From the NCBI GenBank assembly GCA_905236205.1, contig CAJOPF010000046.1, positions 1-33,444 on the forward strand: a DNA stretch of 33,444 nucleotides, given 5' to 3'. The translations under genes were made by a program, and so were the position numbers. This stretch comes from Candidatus Gastranaerophilales bacterium (GTDB lineage: Bacteria > Cyanobacteriota > Vampirovibrionia > Gastranaerophilales > Gastranaerophilaceae). Below are positions 1,592 through 33,444 of the stretch, in pieces. Position 1 is the stretch's first letter; every line of letters begins with the position of its first letter. The notes below the pieces were generated by a model. The model was not told the origin of the DNA and searched no databases. It saw only the letters and a program-made list of their open reading frames with translations.

Positions 1592-2620
1592 ATGGATAAA
1601 ATTTTAGAAAAAGCAAAAAGCACAAATAATCTTACAAAATCCGAACTTGTTCAAATTCTGCAAAACGATGAACTTAATGAGGATTTGTTTACACTTGCCG
1701 ATAAAATCAGAAAAGATAATGTCGGAGACGAGGTTCATTTAAGAGGATTGATTGAATTTTCAAATATTTGTAAATGTTCCTGCAAATACTGTGGCTTAAG
1801 AAAAGACAATGACATTCTTGAAAGATATCGTCTTACTCCTGAACAAATTATTGATTTTGCTATAAAGGCAAGTAAATACGGTTATAAAACAGTCGTTTTG
1901 CAATCAGGTGAAGACGCTTGGTTTTCCGCAGAAAAAGTGTGTGAAATAATAAGAGAAATCAAAAAATTTAACCTTGCAATAACTCTAAGTATCGGCGAAA
2001 AAACATTTGAAGAGTATAAAGCATACAAAGAAGCAGGCGCTGACAGATATCTAATCCGAATAGAAACAACAGATGAAAACTTGTATAAAAAAATGCATCC
2101 TAATATGGATTTTGAAAACAGAACAAGATGCTTAAAAGATTTGAAGAAATTAAACTACGAAGTCGGAAGCGGATGTTTGGTCGGACTTCCAAACCAAACA
2201 TTAAACTCTTTGGCAGACGACATTCTGTTTTTTAAAGAAATTGATGCCGATATGATAGGTATAGGACCGTTTATACCAAATCCGAATACACCGCTCAGTG
2301 ACGAACAAGGCGGCACATTTAAACTTGCCCTAAAAGTTATGGCAATTGTCAGAATACTAATGCCAACAATAAATATCCCCGCAACAACCGCAATGGAAAC
2401 ACTAAATCCAAACGGGCGCATTATTGCACTTCAATCAGGAGCAAATGTTGTCATGCCAAATGTTACAGAGGGTGATTACAGAAAAAAATATGAAATTTAT
2501 CCTGGGAAAATTTGCATAAATGACACACCAAATCAATGCCGAAACTGCATTGAAAGCAAAATAAAATCAATAGGCAGAACAATATCAACAAACTACGGTT
2601 TTCACATAAAAACAAAATAA
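1592..2620 (+). CDS. hydE: Radical SAM protein, HydE-like ([FeFe]-hydrogenase H-cluster maturase family)
   Basis: LRGLIEFSNICKCSCKYCGLRKDN radical SAM CxxxCxxC motif with HydE/BioB-type context. ORF-track start at 1445 overlaps tig; ATG at 1592 (MDKILEKAKSTNNLT...) is more plausible. Confidence 0.82.
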   Translation: MDKILEKAKSTNNLTKSELVQILQNDELNEDLFTLADKIRKDNVGDEVHLRGLIEFSNICKCSCKYCGLRKDNDILERYRLTPEQIIDFAIKASKYGYKTVVLQSGEDAWFSAEKVCEIIREIKKFNLAITLSIGEKTFEEYKAYKEAGADRYLIRIETTDENLYKKMHPNMDFENRTRCLKDLKKLNYEVGSGCLVGLPNQTLNSLADDILFFKEIDADMIGIGPFIPNPNTPLSDEQGGTFKLALKVMAIVRILMPTINIPATTAMETLNPNGRIIALQSGANVVMPNVTEGDYRKKYEIYPGKICINDTPNQCRNCIESKIKSIGRTISTNYGFHIKTK

Positions 2621-2651
2621 AAAAAAGACCGCCATAGCGGTCTTTTTTTAT
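2621..2651. terminator. Rho-independent terminator hairpin between convergent genes
   Basis: aaaaaaaGACCGCcataGCGGTCttttttt: perfect stem with A/T tracts on both sides (bidirectional). Confidence 0.9.
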
Positions 2652-2662
2652 GATAAAGAAAA

Positions 2663-2977
2663 TTACATATTTTTAACACTGGCATCAAAATCTGATGAAC
2701 AATGTTTCATTTGAGCATCAATCATTGAAAGTTGAGTTTGATATTGCAACAATTGTTGATCAAGTTTCTTTTCAAGAAGATGCAATCTTTCTTTTCTTGC
2801 TTCAAGCTGTTTCAACACAGGACTGTCTGCACTCAAATCGGTTCCGGCATTAACCAATTGAGCATTTTGAGCTGCAAGGTCAGCTTTTGCTTGAGTAACT
2901 AAATCTATTTTGTAGTTCAAATCAGATCTTTGAGACTGAAGTGTGAACATTCTTAGTGATGATGTTAATACGCCCAT
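2663..2977 (-). CDS. Small all-helical protein; minimal paralog of the MGMAASQAR-type family
   Basis: 104 aa. N-terminus MGVLTSSLRMFTLQSQRSDLNYKIDLVTQAKADLAAQNAQLV aligns without gaps to MGMAASQARYLGLTARKTNVEYEGQQINQARTALANQSAELW of 11455-12768; C-terminal coiled coil is also similar. Confidence 0.75.
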   Translation of the reverse strand: MGVLTSSLRMFTLQSQRSDLNYKIDLVTQAKADLAAQNAQLVNAGTDLSADSPVLKQLEARKERLHLLEKKLDQQLLQYQTQLSMIDAQMKHCSSDFDASVKNM

Positions 2978-2998
2978 AATATCTTTCCTTTTTGTTTT

Positions 2999-3274
2999 TT
3001 ACCTTGTTTGATCGAAATTTTTACCTTTTAAGAAGTTGTGTTGATTATTCTCTGCAATCAATGCTTCCATTCTGTTGAATTGGTACTTGTGGTAATTAAC
3101 CCTGTATTGAGCCATTTTCAGCTTTTTACGGATAGTTAACAAATCCTTAATACCGTTGATAATATCATTTCCCATTGCTTGAATAGGATTTTTCTTCACG
3201 AAATAGTTTCTTGTAAATGCCAAGAAGTTCATAATTCGTTTGAAGTTAGTCTGTAAAGCTTCGGCTTGGAGCAT
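2999..3274 (-). CDS. Small helical hypothetical protein
   Basis: Start reassigned from 3310 to ATG at 3274 because of AAAGGAGGGCTT-ATG Shine-Dalgarno; 91 aa, MLQAEALQTNFKRIMNFLAFTRNYF... Same strand and spacing as 2663-2977. Confidence 0.72.
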   Translation of the reverse strand: MLQAEALQTNFKRIMNFLAFTRNYFVKKNPIQAMGNDIINGIKDLLTIRKKLKMAQYRVNYHKYQFNRMEALIAENNQHNFLKGKNFDQTR

Positions 3275-3605
3275 AAGCCCTCCTTTTCTCACTTTATAGA
3301 TTGACTTCACATATATAAAAACATGTCTTTGCCTTTTTTTGCCTACATTTCAGCATGTCTGTAACATGTCTTAATCATGTGGTACAATCTATTCTGTCTC
3401 CCGTGATACTTAAAAAGACAATCTCTTTTCTCATATCTGTATATTTTATCGGCATAGATTTTTTAAACTTTAGGGGAAATGGTATTTTTTGATACAAATT
3501 GTAATAAAACTTTACAATCCACAACAAAGCCCTTATAAATACGTTATTTATAAAGACTTTGTATATTATCATTCTTAAATAAGTGCGTGTTTTCATAGAT
3601 TATAA

Positions 3606-4457
3606 TTACAAGTTTTGGATTGCTTTTGAATCCGAATCCATACCTTCTTTTAGCATTTTTCTTACAATTTCACCTTGAGTATCAAGCATTTTGCAAACTG
3701 TTTCAATGTTTCTTACCTTATTTGATAGGATTGTGTCGGCATTAGACAAGATATTGGCAGAAACATTTTGATATGCTGCAAGTGCCGCAGAAGATGTACC
3801 CTGCATTAAGTTACCCATAACAATTGCAGGTAAACCGTATTCGCCCAAATAAGGAGCAGCTGCCGTCATGATACCGCCCCAACCGGAAATCAAACCGGCA
3901 AGAGGCATAACAACATTTTGCATGCCAAGTCCGTATCCGTTAGCAGTACCTACACCGTAAGCTGTTGCACTTGCAACATCAGCAATACTGCCCAAAGCAG
4001 AAGCTCCGCCCGTTACCGTACCTGAAGACTGTCCTATTCCTGATATCAAATTATTTGTTATAGAAGAAGCTCCGCCCGTAGCAAAACCGCTTAATGAAAG
4101 TCCTGCTGCGCCGCTCGGAAATCCTGAAAAACTACCTAAATTTCCGATACCAAAAGCTGAAGTTGTTCCGTTAACTTGAGCAGTTGAGCCAGTAATAGGT
4201 GACCAATAAGAAGTACCAGGGATATTGAACGAATCAGTTCCGCCCATTACACTCATAAAAGATGAAGGAGCGAATAAGCTTGCAAGTTTATACAACGCAC
4301 CGCCTGCCAATTCAAAGCCTGTGCCTGAACTTGCAGAACCTGAAACGGTTAAATCTCTTAATCGGTCGTAAGTTTCATATAATTGAACTTTTGCATCACT
4401 TGATGCAGAACCGAATTTATTTGCTATTACCAATAAACTATCGTTTTTGTATGACAT
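3606..4457 (-). CDS. Ala/Gly/Ser-rich hypothetical protein with helical ends
   Basis: 283 aa; low-complexity GASSITNNLISGIGQSSGTVTGGASALGS core, charged helical N- and C-termini (ETVCKMLDTQGEIVRKMLKEGMDSDSKAIQNL), SD GAGG upstream of ATG. Confidence 0.75.
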   Translation of the reverse strand: MSYKNDSLLVIANKFGSASSDAKVQLYETYDRLRDLTVSGSASSGTGFELAGGALYKLASLFAPSSFMSVMGGTDSFNIPGTSYWSPITGSTAQVNGTTSAFGIGNLGSFSGFPSGAAGLSLSGFATGGASSITNNLISGIGQSSGTVTGGASALGSIADVASATAYGVGTANGYGLGMQNVVMPLAGLISGWGGIMTAAAPYLGEYGLPAIVMGNLMQGTSSAALAAYQNVSANILSNADTILSNKVRNIETVCKMLDTQGEIVRKMLKEGMDSDSKAIQNL

Positions 4458-4509
4458 AATCTCAACCTCGTGGTTTTTGGTGCGTTACCAAACTTGACTT
4501 GTATCCGTT

Positions 4510-4539
4510 GCAAGTGTGCGGCGTATTAAGCACACTTGC
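4510..4539. other. Intergenic hairpin 1 (10-bp perfect stem)
   Basis: GCAAGTGTGC-ggcgtattaa-GCACACTTGC. Confidence 0.8.
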
Positions 4540-4553
4540 AATTTTATTAAGGA

Positions 4554-4579
4554 GCTTATTAAAGAGCCTTTTAATAAGC
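4554..4579. other. Intergenic hairpin 2 (10-bp perfect stem)
   Basis: GCTTATTAAA-gagcct-TTTAATAAGC, immediately after the stop of the minus-strand gene 4589-5914. Confidence 0.8.
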
Positions 4580-4588
4580 CCGTAATTA

Positions 4589-5914
4589 TTATTTGAATGT
4601 ACCAAAAGTACCTTCGACGTTCTTTTGAAGAACACCTTTAACAGCATCCATTTCTGTTGTAAGAGCTTTTTGCTCTGTTTCAAGCTGTTTTAATCTCAAC
4701 TCAAGTGTTCTGTCTTGTTCTTGAATCAATGATGTTTTAGCGTTGATATCAGACATTTGTTTTTCGTATTTGTTCAAATCATAATAGTACTGATTCATTG
4801 CATCATCATAACCTTTTTGGTTAGTTGTTTCTTCAGCTTTTAAGTTAAATGGTGTACTCATATTTTTTAACTTAATATTTGAATAACGTCCGGAGCCTGA
4901 TGCATCATCCATTATTGCATAATCTGTTGATGTAATGGTTTCATCCATATTAGTTGCATAATAATGTGTTAGTGAAGGTTGGAAGTCCATGTTTGAAGAA
5001 ATAGCATATTCTGTTTCTTCGTGCTTAGATTTATTCCAGCAATCATCCAGTTCAGCTTTTGTTGTATAGTATACGTTACCATTTTTTTCGTATTTGTATA
5101 CTTCACCATTTTCAAACATTTCTTGAGTGATTCCGCCTGATTTACCAAAATCATAAATAATTTGTTCAATTGCTGTTTGATCAACCAAACTTGTATTTGG
5201 ATCATCAGGTAAACATACTTTTGCTTCGGAATTACCAAGTTTGTAAGAATTAGCTTCAGCGACATCTTTCAAACCATTAAATGCTGTATCTGTTGCAGCG
5301 ATATCTGCATCCGTTTTCAAGTGAGCATAACCAAGTTTACCGCCACCTGTATCATAACTGTATAATTTATAGCCTGCTGGTAATTCCTCTATGTTATTTG
5401 CCTCACAATATTTTGCAATATCTGCTTCAGCAGTAATTTCTGTTAAAATAACAGGATCACCGTTTCCATCAGTAAATGTGTCTGTATCTTTTGTGTACGT
5501 TAAACCTTCAATTGTTGCATGAATTGTCGGATCAATTTCAGTGTGCGCAGGTACAGTAACTTTTTGTACTTGTGGATTTGAATTTGTTGATTCAATACCT
5601 TTGTAAACTGTTGTCAAAGTTTTGTACGTTACTAATTTGTTGTATTTAGAACCATCTGCTTCTTTTTTATCCACAGATTGCATATCAGTAATTGTATAAT
5701 TGTTAATACCATCACTGAATGAATATGTAAGAGTTGTGTAATCCGTAATACTTGGAACAGTAGGAACCGATAATCCTAACATTTGATTCCATAATGCTGC
5801 GGATTGGTTACCAAGAGCTGTACGTGCTTGGTTAATTTGTTGACCTTCGTATTCAACGTTGGTTTTTCTTGCGGTAAGACCTAAATATCTTGCCTGTGAT
5901 GCTGCCATGCCCAT
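4589..5914 (-). CDS. MGMAASQAR-type family protein, putative exported/structural protein with helical ends and variable middle
   Basis: 441 aa; paralogous along its length to 11455-12768: shared N-term, NSNPQVQKV, YKLGN.EA, GSGRYSNIKL and C-terminal INAKTSLIQEQDRTLELRLKQLETEQKALTTEMDAVKGVLQKN. Confidence 0.88.
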   Translation of the reverse strand: MGMAASQARYLGLTARKTNVEYEGQQINQARTALGNQSAALWNQMLGLSVPTVPSITDYTTLTYSFSDGINNYTITDMQSVDKKEADGSKYNKLVTYKTLTTVYKGIESTNSNPQVQKVTVPAHTEIDPTIHATIEGLTYTKDTDTFTDGNGDPVILTEITAEADIAKYCEANNIEELPAGYKLYSYDTGGGKLGYAHLKTDADIAATDTAFNGLKDVAEANSYKLGNSEAKVCLPDDPNTSLVDQTAIEQIIYDFGKSGGITQEMFENGEVYKYEKNGNVYYTTKAELDDCWNKSKHEETEYAISSNMDFQPSLTHYYATNMDETITSTDYAIMDDASGSGRYSNIKLKNMSTPFNLKAEETTNQKGYDDAMNQYYYDLNKYEKQMSDINAKTSLIQEQDRTLELRLKQLETEQKALTTEMDAVKGVLQKNVEGTFGTFK

Positions 5915-5998
5915 AATGTCATCTCCTATCTTTATAAACTAATAACTTATTTTTGAGTTACTCTCTTTTTCTTATTAATGACGTTTGCCCGAAAGTCA

Positions 5999-6018
5999 AT
6001 AATAATCATGATTATTAT
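5999..6018. promoter_or_regulatory. Perfect 20-bp palindrome, candidate operator
   Basis: ATAATAATCATGATTATTAT, 85-104 bp upstream of the start at 5914. Confidence 0.5.
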
Positions 6019-10753: not shown

Positions 10754-11086
10754 ATGACTTTAAAAAGAAGATGGTATGACAATAACAGCAGCGCAATTGA
10801 GGCTTTTAATATCTTAAAACAACTTGATACGGAATCAAAAAAACGTTTATCAAAAGACCTTATTGAAATTGTCAGACAAATAAAAGAACTTCACAAAGAA
10901 GAAGCCGAACCAAAATTAAGTTTGGGATTAGAAAGAGTATTAGGTTTATATCAACAAAGCGTAAACGAAAGACGTTGGTATGATACAAATGCCGACTTGA
11001 AATATGCGCTAAAAACAATGTCTACATTACCGACAGAAGACTTTTTAAACATAATGGAAGGACTTTCGGTTTCATTAAACAATTAA
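10754..11086 (+). CDS. Hypothetical protein with internal duplication (two RRWYD repeats)
   Basis: 110 aa; RRWYDNNSSAIEAFNILKQLDTE and RRWYDTNADLKYALKTMSTLPTE; SD AAAGGGAG upstream. Confidence 0.75.
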   Translation: MTLKRRWYDNNSSAIEAFNILKQLDTESKKRLSKDLIEIVRQIKELHKEEAEPKLSLGLERVLGLYQQSVNERRWYDTNADLKYALKTMSTLPTEDFLNIMEGLSVSLNN

Positions 11087-11454: not shown

Positions 11455-12768
11455 ATGGGAATGGCAGCATCACAAGCTCGTTACTTGGGCTTAACAGCGA
11501 GAAAAACAAACGTAGAATACGAAGGTCAACAAATAAACCAAGCACGTACGGCACTGGCAAATCAATCCGCAGAACTGTGGAATAAAATGCTTAATATGTC
11601 CGTACCTATTGCACCTAATAAAACTGACTATGTAGAACAACAATATGCATTTACAGATGGTGTTAACGAATATGAAATCGACAAACTTCAACAAGTAGAC
11701 AAAGAAATTGGCGACGAAAAATATAACTATCAAGTTACATACCACTTTAATCAAAATGTATATAAAGCTATTCAAGAAACTAATTCAAATCCTCAGGTTC
11801 AAAAAATAGAGAAATTTACAACAGACCAAAAAACCGAAAATAATATTTCAGTTACAAAACAAGGTTCAAATTTCAATGTTACGGATTCAAGCGGTACTGC
11901 AGCAATCTTCACGACATGCGATGAAAAGGATTTGGATGAACTCAAAAAACTTGCTCAAGAAGGTAAAATTACTCTTGATAATGTAGCACAGTTCAGCAAA
12001 TGCGAAGGTGAAGATGATAACGGTAACAAAGTTAAACTCTTCTGCAAAAATACCGATTTGGAAGCACTTGCTCAATCAGGAACAGCAGGTCAATTAACAT
12101 ACGCAAAAACGACTCAAAATGATTTTAGTTACAAGTTGGGTAATGCTCAAGCCGAAAGATATAATTCAGCAGACAAAATTCAAAAAACGGCACTTGAACA
12201 AATAAGACACGATTACCCTGAATTGGCAACCGTTGCAGATAGTGATATTTGGGTATACGAGAGAAACGGTAAAATGTATTTTGCCACTACCGTAGATTTG
12301 GAAAAATGTGTAAATAGCGGTAACGGAAACCAAGTAAACGATAAATATCAAATTTCATCACCAATTGATTACCAAGTAGCATTACCTCAATATTATGCAA
12401 CAGATATAGAAGAAAAAATTACACAAACAGAGTACGCAAGACTTGATGACAGATCAGGTACAGGACGTTACCAAAATATAAAACTTGAAAGTATGGATAC
12501 AACTCTTGCTTTAAACTCTCAGGAAAAAGCAGATGATGCTGCGTATGAAGATGCAATGCAGCAATATAATTACAATATTACAAAATATGAAAAGAAACTT
12601 GCAGAAATCAATGCAAAAACATCTCTTATTCAGGTTGAAGACAGAACTCTTGAATTGAGATTAAGACAGCTTGATACAGAGCAAAAAGCACTTTCTACCG
12701 AAATGGAAGCAGTAAAAAGCGTTATTCAAAAAAATATCGAAACAACGTTCAAAACGTTCTCTTCATAA
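11455..12768 (+). CDS. MGMAASQAR-type family protein, paralog of 4589-5914
   Basis: Start placed at the second ATG (MGMAASQARYLGLTARKTNVEYEGQQINQARTALANQSAELWNKML) to match the paralog; GGGAGAGACGCTT SD; conserved C-terminal coiled coil. Confidence 0.88.
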   Translation: MGMAASQARYLGLTARKTNVEYEGQQINQARTALANQSAELWNKMLNMSVPIAPNKTDYVEQQYAFTDGVNEYEIDKLQQVDKEIGDEKYNYQVTYHFNQNVYKAIQETNSNPQVQKIEKFTTDQKTENNISVTKQGSNFNVTDSSGTAAIFTTCDEKDLDELKKLAQEGKITLDNVAQFSKCEGEDDNGNKVKLFCKNTDLEALAQSGTAGQLTYAKTTQNDFSYKLGNAQAERYNSADKIQKTALEQIRHDYPELATVADSDIWVYERNGKMYFATTVDLEKCVNSGNGNQVNDKYQISSPIDYQVALPQYYATDIEEKITQTEYARLDDRSGTGRYQNIKLESMDTTLALNSQEKADDAAYEDAMQQYNYNITKYEKKLAEINAKTSLIQVEDRTLELRLRQLDTEQKALSTEMEAVKSVIQKNIETTFKTFSS

Positions 12769-31566: not shown

Positions 31567-33444
31567 TTATATCAATTGCCATTCATTAAAGCCTGACCAG
31601 TCGTCCCAACGATTATATGCGGCACAAAGAGTATATTGTCCGTCATCGTCAAGTCCGCTTGCTATAGCTTCGCTTGTGCTTGAAAATCCTCTGTCTGTGA
31701 GCCAGCCGACTACGTCAGCAATCAGAGAACCTGCATTCTTGCTCAATAAATTAGAATAATTTAATTGATAACGGCTATATTCTTCCGCAGTAACAGTTTC
31801 CATTTTTCCTTTTTCAAAACCGTCTTTGATTTTTAAGTAGTTACCCGGAGTATCTCCGCTGATAATACTGCTCAAACCTGTTGCGTCAGTAAAGTACAAA
31901 TCTTTTCCGTACGTACCGTCTAAATTTATATCAAAATAAGTAAATAAATCTGTAACCGAATTACCAAGACATATTTGCAAGCTGTCGTTTCCGCCCCTGT
32001 CTATTATAGTATAACCGCCAGGAGTAAGTTCCAATTCATAATCTTCATATATATCATCAATTTTGCTCAGGCTATTTACCAGAACATCTTTTCTGTGTTG
32101 CAATATTCCCATACCGTCAGGATCACTAAAATTAAAGTCATGATTTATGTAAGTACTACTTGTATCAACCAATTGTGTTACGCCGCTCAATGACACTTGT
32201 CCCTGCGCACTGCCCATTCTGATTTTCAAATTATCCGAGGCTTCATCTGAGTCTATATTCAATACACCTTCATTCCATTTACCTCTGAGTATAAGCTCAT
32301 TTTGGTCATAAACATCAGAATCATTAGGATTTTGAGAATAGAATCTTATATTATCGACAGCACTTGCTCCGGTATGCCAATCATGCTTGAATACCATATT
32401 TATATTATCTGCGTATCTGAAACCAATATTTGTTTTATATTTATTTAAATAGCCGTTAGTATCAACAATAGTTTGCCTATAATCATCGGAATTACAAAAT
32501 ATATTTTTCACTTTTCCTGTTGTAGCAATCGAAGCGTAAGTTATAGTGGCATAACCCTTACCATTCAAATATATTTGCTCTGCTCCTTTTGTATTTAGAG
32601 AAGAATTAAAAGTACCGTTCAAATTATAGGTTGACGCATAATCACCTGAAGAAATTATACTCACATCAGCATTTGCATTGATTATATTGCCTGTACCCGA
32701 TACTGTCATTTGTGTTTTGGAATTTAACATAACTTCGTTATATTTACCCGCTATATCAACAGTATTATGTTGATTGTTTGCAAGAGTGTTATTAAAAAAT
32801 ATGTGGTTATCTTCTGCATAATTCGACAAATTAACGGTATGCGCTTTATTACCTTCCAGCCACAAATAATCACCCCTGCAACTATTGTTAACAGTAGTTG
32901 AGGTGTTACCTGATAGAATATATAAATGATGTGATGTATCCAAAGTATACGATGTCTGATTAGTTATGTATGTAACCTCAGGCGCTGACATTCTCAAAAA
33001 ATCATCATACAAATAACCGTTTTTCCCTGTTGCAGTTGTTACCTTAAATGCATAGCCACGATAAAAATTAGTAAGTGAATAGAAATCCTTAACCGTAACA
33101 TTTTCTCCAGTTACAGATTTTAAAACAAGGTCATTACCTACTTGTTCGCCCAAGACATATTCATAATCTCTGAAATTATGAATAAGTCCGTCACCCTCGA
33201 TAAAAGTTGTACGAGCGCCAATATTATCGACACCGTAAATATAATCGTTTCCGTCACCTGCGTTGTAAACATACGTTGAATAAGAATTACCGCCTAAAAG
33301 ATTTATTACATCGTTACCCTTGCCTGCATTAACAGTCATTCTTTTTGCATCTATGGTAATTGAATCATTACCTGCACCTGCGTTGATGACACCATAGCTT
33401 CCGCCTGTAACCTTAATTTTATCTTTGCCGTTTGTTGTGGTTAA
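31567..33444 (-). CDS. Large RTX-like (hemolysin-type Ca-binding repeat) surface/secreted protein, C-terminal part; 5' end beyond window
   Basis: Reading frame stays open from the track ATG (33339) to the window edge (LTTTNGKDKIKVTGGSYGVINAGAGNDSITIDAKRM...). Nonapeptide-like GAGNDSI, GKGNDVI, GDGNDYI. Confidence 0.85.
   Translation of the reverse strand, partial: LTTTNGKDKIKVTGGSYGVINAGAGNDSITIDAKRMTVNAGKGNDVINLLGGNSYSTYVYNAGDGNDYIYGVDNIGARTTFIEGDGLIHNFRDYEYVLGEQVGNDLVLKSVTGENVTVKDFYSLTNFYRGYAFKVTTATGKNGYLYDDFLRMSAPEVTYITNQTSYTLDTSHHLYILSGNTSTTVNNSCRGDYLWLEGNKAHTVNLSNYAEDNHIFFNNTLANNQHNTVDIAGKYNEVMLNSKTQMTVSGTGNIINANADVSIISSGDYASTYNLNGTFNSSLNTKGAEQIYLNGKGYATITYASIATTGKVKNIFCNSDDYRQTIVDTNGYLNKYKTNIGFRYADNINMVFKHDWHTGASAVDNIRFYSQNPNDSDVYDQNELILRGKWNEGVLNIDSDEASDNLKIRMGSAQGQVSLSGVTQLVDTSSTYINHDFNFSDPDGMGILQHRKDVLVNSLSKIDDIYEDYELELTPGGYTIIDRGGNDSLQICLGNSVTDLFTYFDINLDGTYGKDLYFTDATGLSSIISGDTPGNYLKIKDGFEKGKMETVTAEEYSRYQLNYSNLLSKNAGSLIADVVGWLTDRGFSSTSEAIASGLDDDGQYTLCAAYNRWDDWSGFNEWQLI

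Follow-up and report, generated by a model that had tools for sequence, protein, structure and literature searches.

A four-gene cassette in a 33,444-nucleotide contig of a Candidatus Gastranaerophilales bacterium (the window, meaning the whole stretch of DNA that was analysed) encodes what we consider, with moderate confidence, to be structural or surface substrates of a second type III exporter derived from the flagellum, together with conserved partners of these substrates. This exporter, termed type B here, is distinct from the swimming flagellum. More generally, the data point to a flagellum-derived exporter that is separate and vertically inherited and has a substrate-like protein family of its own. 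The family consists of helical hairpins, many copies of which in gut Gastranaerophilaceae have a variable domain inserted at the turn.

The cassette and its hairpin family

The original prediction, made from the letters of the DNA, placed four consecutive genes on the minus strand, and all four open reading frames were confirmed at their coordinates. The features of the window that concern the cassette and its family are as follows.

5976..5999 (-): conserved upstream element TTGACTTT-N11-CATTA, exact match
4589..5914 (-): MGMAASQAR protein, 441 aa; its helical hairpin, of the 109-aa type, carries a beta-rich insert at the turn
5771..5914 (-): N-terminal helical portion of the 441-aa protein, conserved, residues 1-48 (alignments; AlphaFold helix 2-46)
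4823..5770 (-): variable, mostly beta insert, residues 49-364, absent in 109-aa relatives
4592..4822 (-): C-terminal helical portion, likewise conserved, residues 365-441 (AlphaFold helix 366-440)
3606..4457 (-): 283-aa partner, ends conserved, middle Gly/Ala-rich
2999..3274 (-): 91-aa partner, basic and helical (identity to relatives and cassette position)
2663..2977 (-): 104-aa hairpin paralogue of the MGMAASQAR core, lacking the insert (profile comparisons)
2620..2650 (-): terminator-like G+C-rich inverted repeat followed by a T run, closing the cassette (by eye)
11455..12768 (+): second MGMAASQAR paralogue, 49% identical, with no adjoining cassette partners

For the survey of gene order, the GTDB species collection (250 matching stretches) supplied 80 named loci. 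Of the 63 loci with both sides available, 62 have the MGMAASQAR gene followed on the same strand by the 283-aa, 91-aa and 104-aa genes, and the 17 truncated loci were consistent with this order on the side that could be read. Because order and strand are kept across these loci, the four open reading frames are genes rather than chance. Most of the named relatives belong to Candidatus Gastranaerophilales of animal guts; ruminants and similar samples yielded the closest (~95% identical). The 283-aa protein shares 66-76% identity with 27 relatives and the 91-aa protein 50-58% with 11; the start of the latter gene is placed at 3310 by the ORF caller and at 3274 in its homologues. A 73-aa open reading frame within the cassette (3375-3596) had no database match and was not seen in the relatives that were read. 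Against Pfam, NCBIfam and PHROGs, the four proteins, and likewise the 109-aa core described below, returned coiled-coil noise only, and a PDB sequence search with three profiles gave nothing relevant; no known cytoplasmic family was matched in the databases searched, in line with the original prediction.

Cassette MGMAASQAR genes usually start 60-90 bp after the upstream element, and TTGACTT is present in 98 of 106 upstream regions. The spacing of the element is unlike that of the usual sigma-70 promoter, and consensus sequences for sigma-28, sigma-54 and sigma-70 were not enriched upstream of family genes. Genome-wide, the strict TTGACTTT-N11-CATTA pattern gave 1-7 matches per genome versus 0-2 for the reversed control, and with so few matches no regulon is claimed.

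At the level of sequence comparison, the core unit of the family is shown to be a two-helix hairpin of ~109 aa. The members read in three sister families that carry flagellin (f3, f8 and f9) are 109-aa helical hairpins, which correspond to the N-terminal 48 and C-terminal ~61 residues of the 441-aa protein, linked through a short turn that mostly reads E/DPDSP or the like. From this make-up it follows that the 441-aa protein is a hairpin with an insert of ~316 residues at the turn, and such variable, beta-rich turn domains are shown to occur in many copies in gut Gastranaerophilaceae. In flagellated relatives, the members read were all bare 109-aa hairpins, as a rule five to eight copies per genome. 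Genomes of the window's own family (f1, of which 52 were sampled) gave 12-17 matches each with a first profile and 14-29 with a more sensitive core profile, the real gene number being below these counts because halves of large genes were counted separately. The window's genome has six MGMAASQAR genes in addition to the 104-aa one: two in the window, two on contig C11, one on C53 and one cut by the end of C83.

The original prediction also described similarity between the members of the cassette. This held for the 441-aa and 104-aa proteins, whose profiles match over residues 1-44 (E=1.3e-5); the 104-aa family profile, moreover, finds 109-aa members of the MGMAASQAR family end to end, with E down to 5e-23, and these profile matches make the 104-aa protein a diverged paralogue of the hairpins. 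It did not hold for the 283-aa and 91-aa families, for which hhalign detected no relation to the hairpin core. Both of these partners are nevertheless associated with bare hairpins: a 283-aa gene follows some 109-aa genes (E 8e-39 to 2e-70), as does a 91-aa-like gene in three 109-aa loci. The cassette is thus older than the insert, or has been kept without it.

The layout read from the sequence of the 441-aa protein (a helix at the N-terminus, a beta-rich middle and a long helix at the C-terminus) is also what AlphaFold predicts. With 24 sequences as input, the model has helices at residues 2-46 and 366-440 and a mainly beta middle (mean pLDDT 77.8, pTM 0.42), and so includes the paired terminal helices on which the original prediction hinged. 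The suggested resemblance to flagellar axial proteins fared less evenly: nine of the ten best PDB matches in Foldseek are flagellar filament or cap-filament chains, but their E-values, from 0.013 upward, fall below significance, so that the fold matches are suggestive only. At the sequence level, the earlier statement that no true homology was recognised was borne out. Alignment of the core by hhalign with FliE, FlgB, FlgC, FlgF/G and FliH revealed no relation, nor did that with 24 flagellin-type sequences (E 0.65), and PF00669, the Flagellin_N profile, had no match among the family proteins. The AlphaFold model of the 283-aa protein is confident only for the C-terminal helix (about residues 229-282; overall pLDDT 43.6); as its quality does not allow interpretation, a pore- or tip-like role for this protein is an idea only.

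A second flagellar-type export apparatus

The window's assembly (G000; 1.86 Mb, 163 contigs, 88.6% complete, 4.9% contaminated) encodes two full flagellar-type FlhA proteins. One, the flagellar FlhA, belongs to a fliP-fliQ-fliR-flhB-flhA cluster on contig C27; the other, type B, belongs to a fliE-fliF-(fliG?)-fliH-flhA cluster on C91, the third gene of which has no Pfam or NCBIfam match and is named FliG-like purely for where it lies. Type B FlhA is 36% identical to the flagellar FlhA of its own genome, 64% identical to type B FlhA of flagellated relatives and 83-85% identical to two other gut copies; judged by these identities, it is a separate lineage.

Flagellin is missing from 51 of the 52 f1 genomes, the exception being G000, although this and the other gene absences rest on draft assemblies. 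Full-length FlhA, FliP and FlhB are each found in 51 of the 52, nearly always as one copy outside G000. A single FliI exceeded the cut-off in all seven flagellin-less f1 genomes tested, and only one passes it in G000. The set was read in the flagellin-less genome G022, which is assembled in five contigs. There, a sigma factor of the FliA/WhiG type and two rod proteins of the FlgE/F/G type accompany FliMN_C, FliO, FliP, FliQ, FliR, FliH, FliE, FliF, FlgB and FlgC; FliQ and FliR were also read in the window's genome. Among the matches listed in a rod-domain search bearing on the hook protein FlgE, those from f1 are confined to short reading frames (~150 aa). Flagellated relatives carry type B beside a flagellar set, with two each of FlhA, FliP, FlhB and FliI. 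Because FliE, FlgB and FlgC are kept and the gut genomes nevertheless have no flagellin, the apparatus represents a new form of flagellum-derived type III export. That the hairpin family travels with such a near-complete exporter suggests that an old flagellum was converted, in the flagellin-less gut lineage, to another kind of surface structure or to a device for secretion.

Three further observations concern this apparatus. First, flagellin together with flagellar FlhA was seen in G000 alone of the 52 f1 genomes (contigs C27, C33, C72, C100 and C125; loci L016, L069, L191 and L192); this flagellar set could mark a flagellated member of f1 or could in part be contamination (4.9%). Second, G000 encodes on C9 a protein with the FlhA C-domain only, and a soluble protein of ~490 aa comprising only the FlhA cytoplasmic domain (L018:1824-3287 (-); L067:15224-16702 (+)) is conserved in most f1 genomes, where its gene adjoins BamA-like and Skp-like genes. 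Third, families f5 and f6 (for example, G006 and G018) have one FlhA, FliP, FlhB and FliI each, with neither flagellin nor the hairpin family; this set is another flagellar-type exporter without flagellin.

Association of cassette and exporter

As had been predicted for an export apparatus, flagellar-type type III genes accompany the family, and they adjoin the cassette in many genomes. Across 146 Vampirovibrionia genomes, the hairpin family was found in 70, all of which have FlhA (70/70), and with the first profile in none of the 52 that lack FlhA; the more sensitive core profile added one marginal match (E=0.004) in the FlhA-less genome G036. FlhA occurs where the hairpin family is absent in 24 genomes (f4, f5 and f6). 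This co-occurrence follows clades, and the genomes do not count as independent cases.

Physical linkage provides the stronger evidence. When the cassette is marked by the 104-aa gene, it is found on the same contig as type B flhA in 31 of 49 genomes, from 7 of 12 genera, always at a distance of 6.5-15.1 kb; in the other 18 genomes the two are on different contigs. In a 1.9-Mb genome, with no correction for relatedness, a single-copy locus would fall within 16 kb of another in ~2% of cases. Cassette and flhA do not share an operon, other genes lying between them, and among the window's nearest relatives the two are within 10 kb in 2 of 80 loci. In the window's assembly they are on different contigs, the one with the cassette carrying no export genes. 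In three genomes with the cassette near flhA, a coiled-coil gene of ~200 aa converges on the end of the cassette:

L053:9514-10125 (-): convergent ~200-aa coiled-coil gene
L055:16922-17599 (+): convergent ~200-aa coiled-coil gene
L057:12159-12812 (+): convergent ~200-aa coiled-coil gene

The hairpins are a new family that may work like axial proteins. If the cassette does serve type B, the hairpins would be exported through FlhA/FlhB/FliPQR, and their end helices would pack them into a rod, needle or filament, with the retained FliE-FlgB-FlgC-FlgF/G rod as the putative base of assembly. By analogy with D2/D3 of flagellin, the inserted domains might be displayed on the outside. The 104-aa form would then be a plain axial subunit or a cap, and the 91-aa and 283-aa proteins would be dedicated helpers. 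A more specific version, which we offer tentatively as possible rather than probable, is that in Gastranaerophilales and sister families the new hairpins build a hitherto unseen extracellular appendage or needle on a second, non-motile flagellar basal body; in the gut lineage this would have outlived the flagellum and, as domains were inserted, become a surface structure with many variants.

The same layout could also arise if the proteins were cargo of type B, with adhesins, enzymes or effectors in the inserts and end helices that act as handles for export or chaperones instead of as polymer contacts. Inserts that vary widely among paralogues between two conserved ends, and many dispersed copies per genome, would fit such cargo. 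However, all members read in the flagellated relatives are bare 109-aa hairpins with no cargo domain, and the conserved last residues (NIxxTFKTF) would seem to suit packing better than a handle; we regard this explanation as unlikely, although it is the best of the alternatives. Slightly less likely again is a cytoplasmic coiled-coil scaffold, chaperone or regulator, with a link to the exporter that reflects shared ancestry and a chance neighbourhood. It would account for coiled-coil noise being the best database match, for co-occurrence at the level of clades and for the position of the cassette outside the flhA operon, but not for an equally short distance to type B flhA in seven genera, and a large beta domain at the turn would be unusual for coiled-coil proteins.

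That the gut export genes are a decaying flagellum to which the cassette is unrelated appears very improbable. Soo et al. 2014 (PMC4040986) judged that the gene sets could not yield a functional flagellum and inferred loss; yet type B stands alongside a flagellar set in flagellated relatives, FlhA is 83-90% identical across three gut genera and nearly all of the 52 f1 genomes retain the complete set. Least credible of all are WXG100-like type VII substrates, that is, helical hairpins of ~100 aa secreted as dimers, which the 109-aa core fits in size and two-helix shape, but whose WxG is absent from a turn that is mostly E/DPDSP, with no WXG100 match among the families shown and known type VII cargo being attached at the C-terminus and not at the turn.

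Relation to known systems

The proposed role of the cassette in type B export invites comparison with flagella and with other type III systems. Flagellin and axial proteins share with the hairpin family helical conserved ends, a variable beta-rich middle, several paralogues and genomes that hold flagellar-type export genes, flagellar filaments also being the best fold matches; they differ in that the two have no sequence relation and that the hairpin core can stand alone at 109 aa. Injectisomes and other non-flagellar type III systems, like type B, have homologues of the core export genes but no flagellin. FliE, FlgB and FlgC are the markers by which Abby and Rocha 2012 separated flagella from non-flagellar systems, which lack them (PMC3459982), whereas type B, as seen in G022, has them. 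Similarly, the intermediate type III system of Myxococcales is a partial, flagellum-related exporter conserved without a flagellum, as is type B, but it has neither FlgBC nor FliE (PMC3459982), both of which type B has. Non-flagellated Lysobacter enzymogenes, like the hosts of type B, puts flagellar-type export genes to other use; the abstract of that study (PMC7277350) describes no dedicated substrate family, whereas type B is accompanied by a substrate-like family with a conserved cassette.

In this lineage, the 'incomplete flagellum' of gut Melainabacteria has so far been taken to reflect lost motility. Melainabacteria were described as flagellated by Di Rienzi et al. 2013 (PMC3787301); Soo et al. 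2014 concluded that no functional flagellum could be made from the gene sets and inferred its loss (PMC4040986), a reading repeated in a termite single-cell genome paper (PMC5877343), and the Vampirovibrio paper inferred loss of flagella in the order (PMC4451040). We found no description of a separate type III system in Vampirovibrionia in the open-licence literature. If the proposed role in type B export is correct, common animal gut bacteria would harbour a type III system that falls outside the definitions of both flagellum and injectisome, and the hairpins would be a second case of a helical hairpin diversified at its turn in the fashion of flagellin. The hairpin family and its cassette provide marker genes with which the structure can be sought.

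Two other proteins of the window were noted. The first, of 110 aa (10754-11086 (+)), has two RRWYDxN repeats and no database match; the second, of 590 aa (31567-33339 (-)), has GxGND-type repeats and is RTX-like in appearance.
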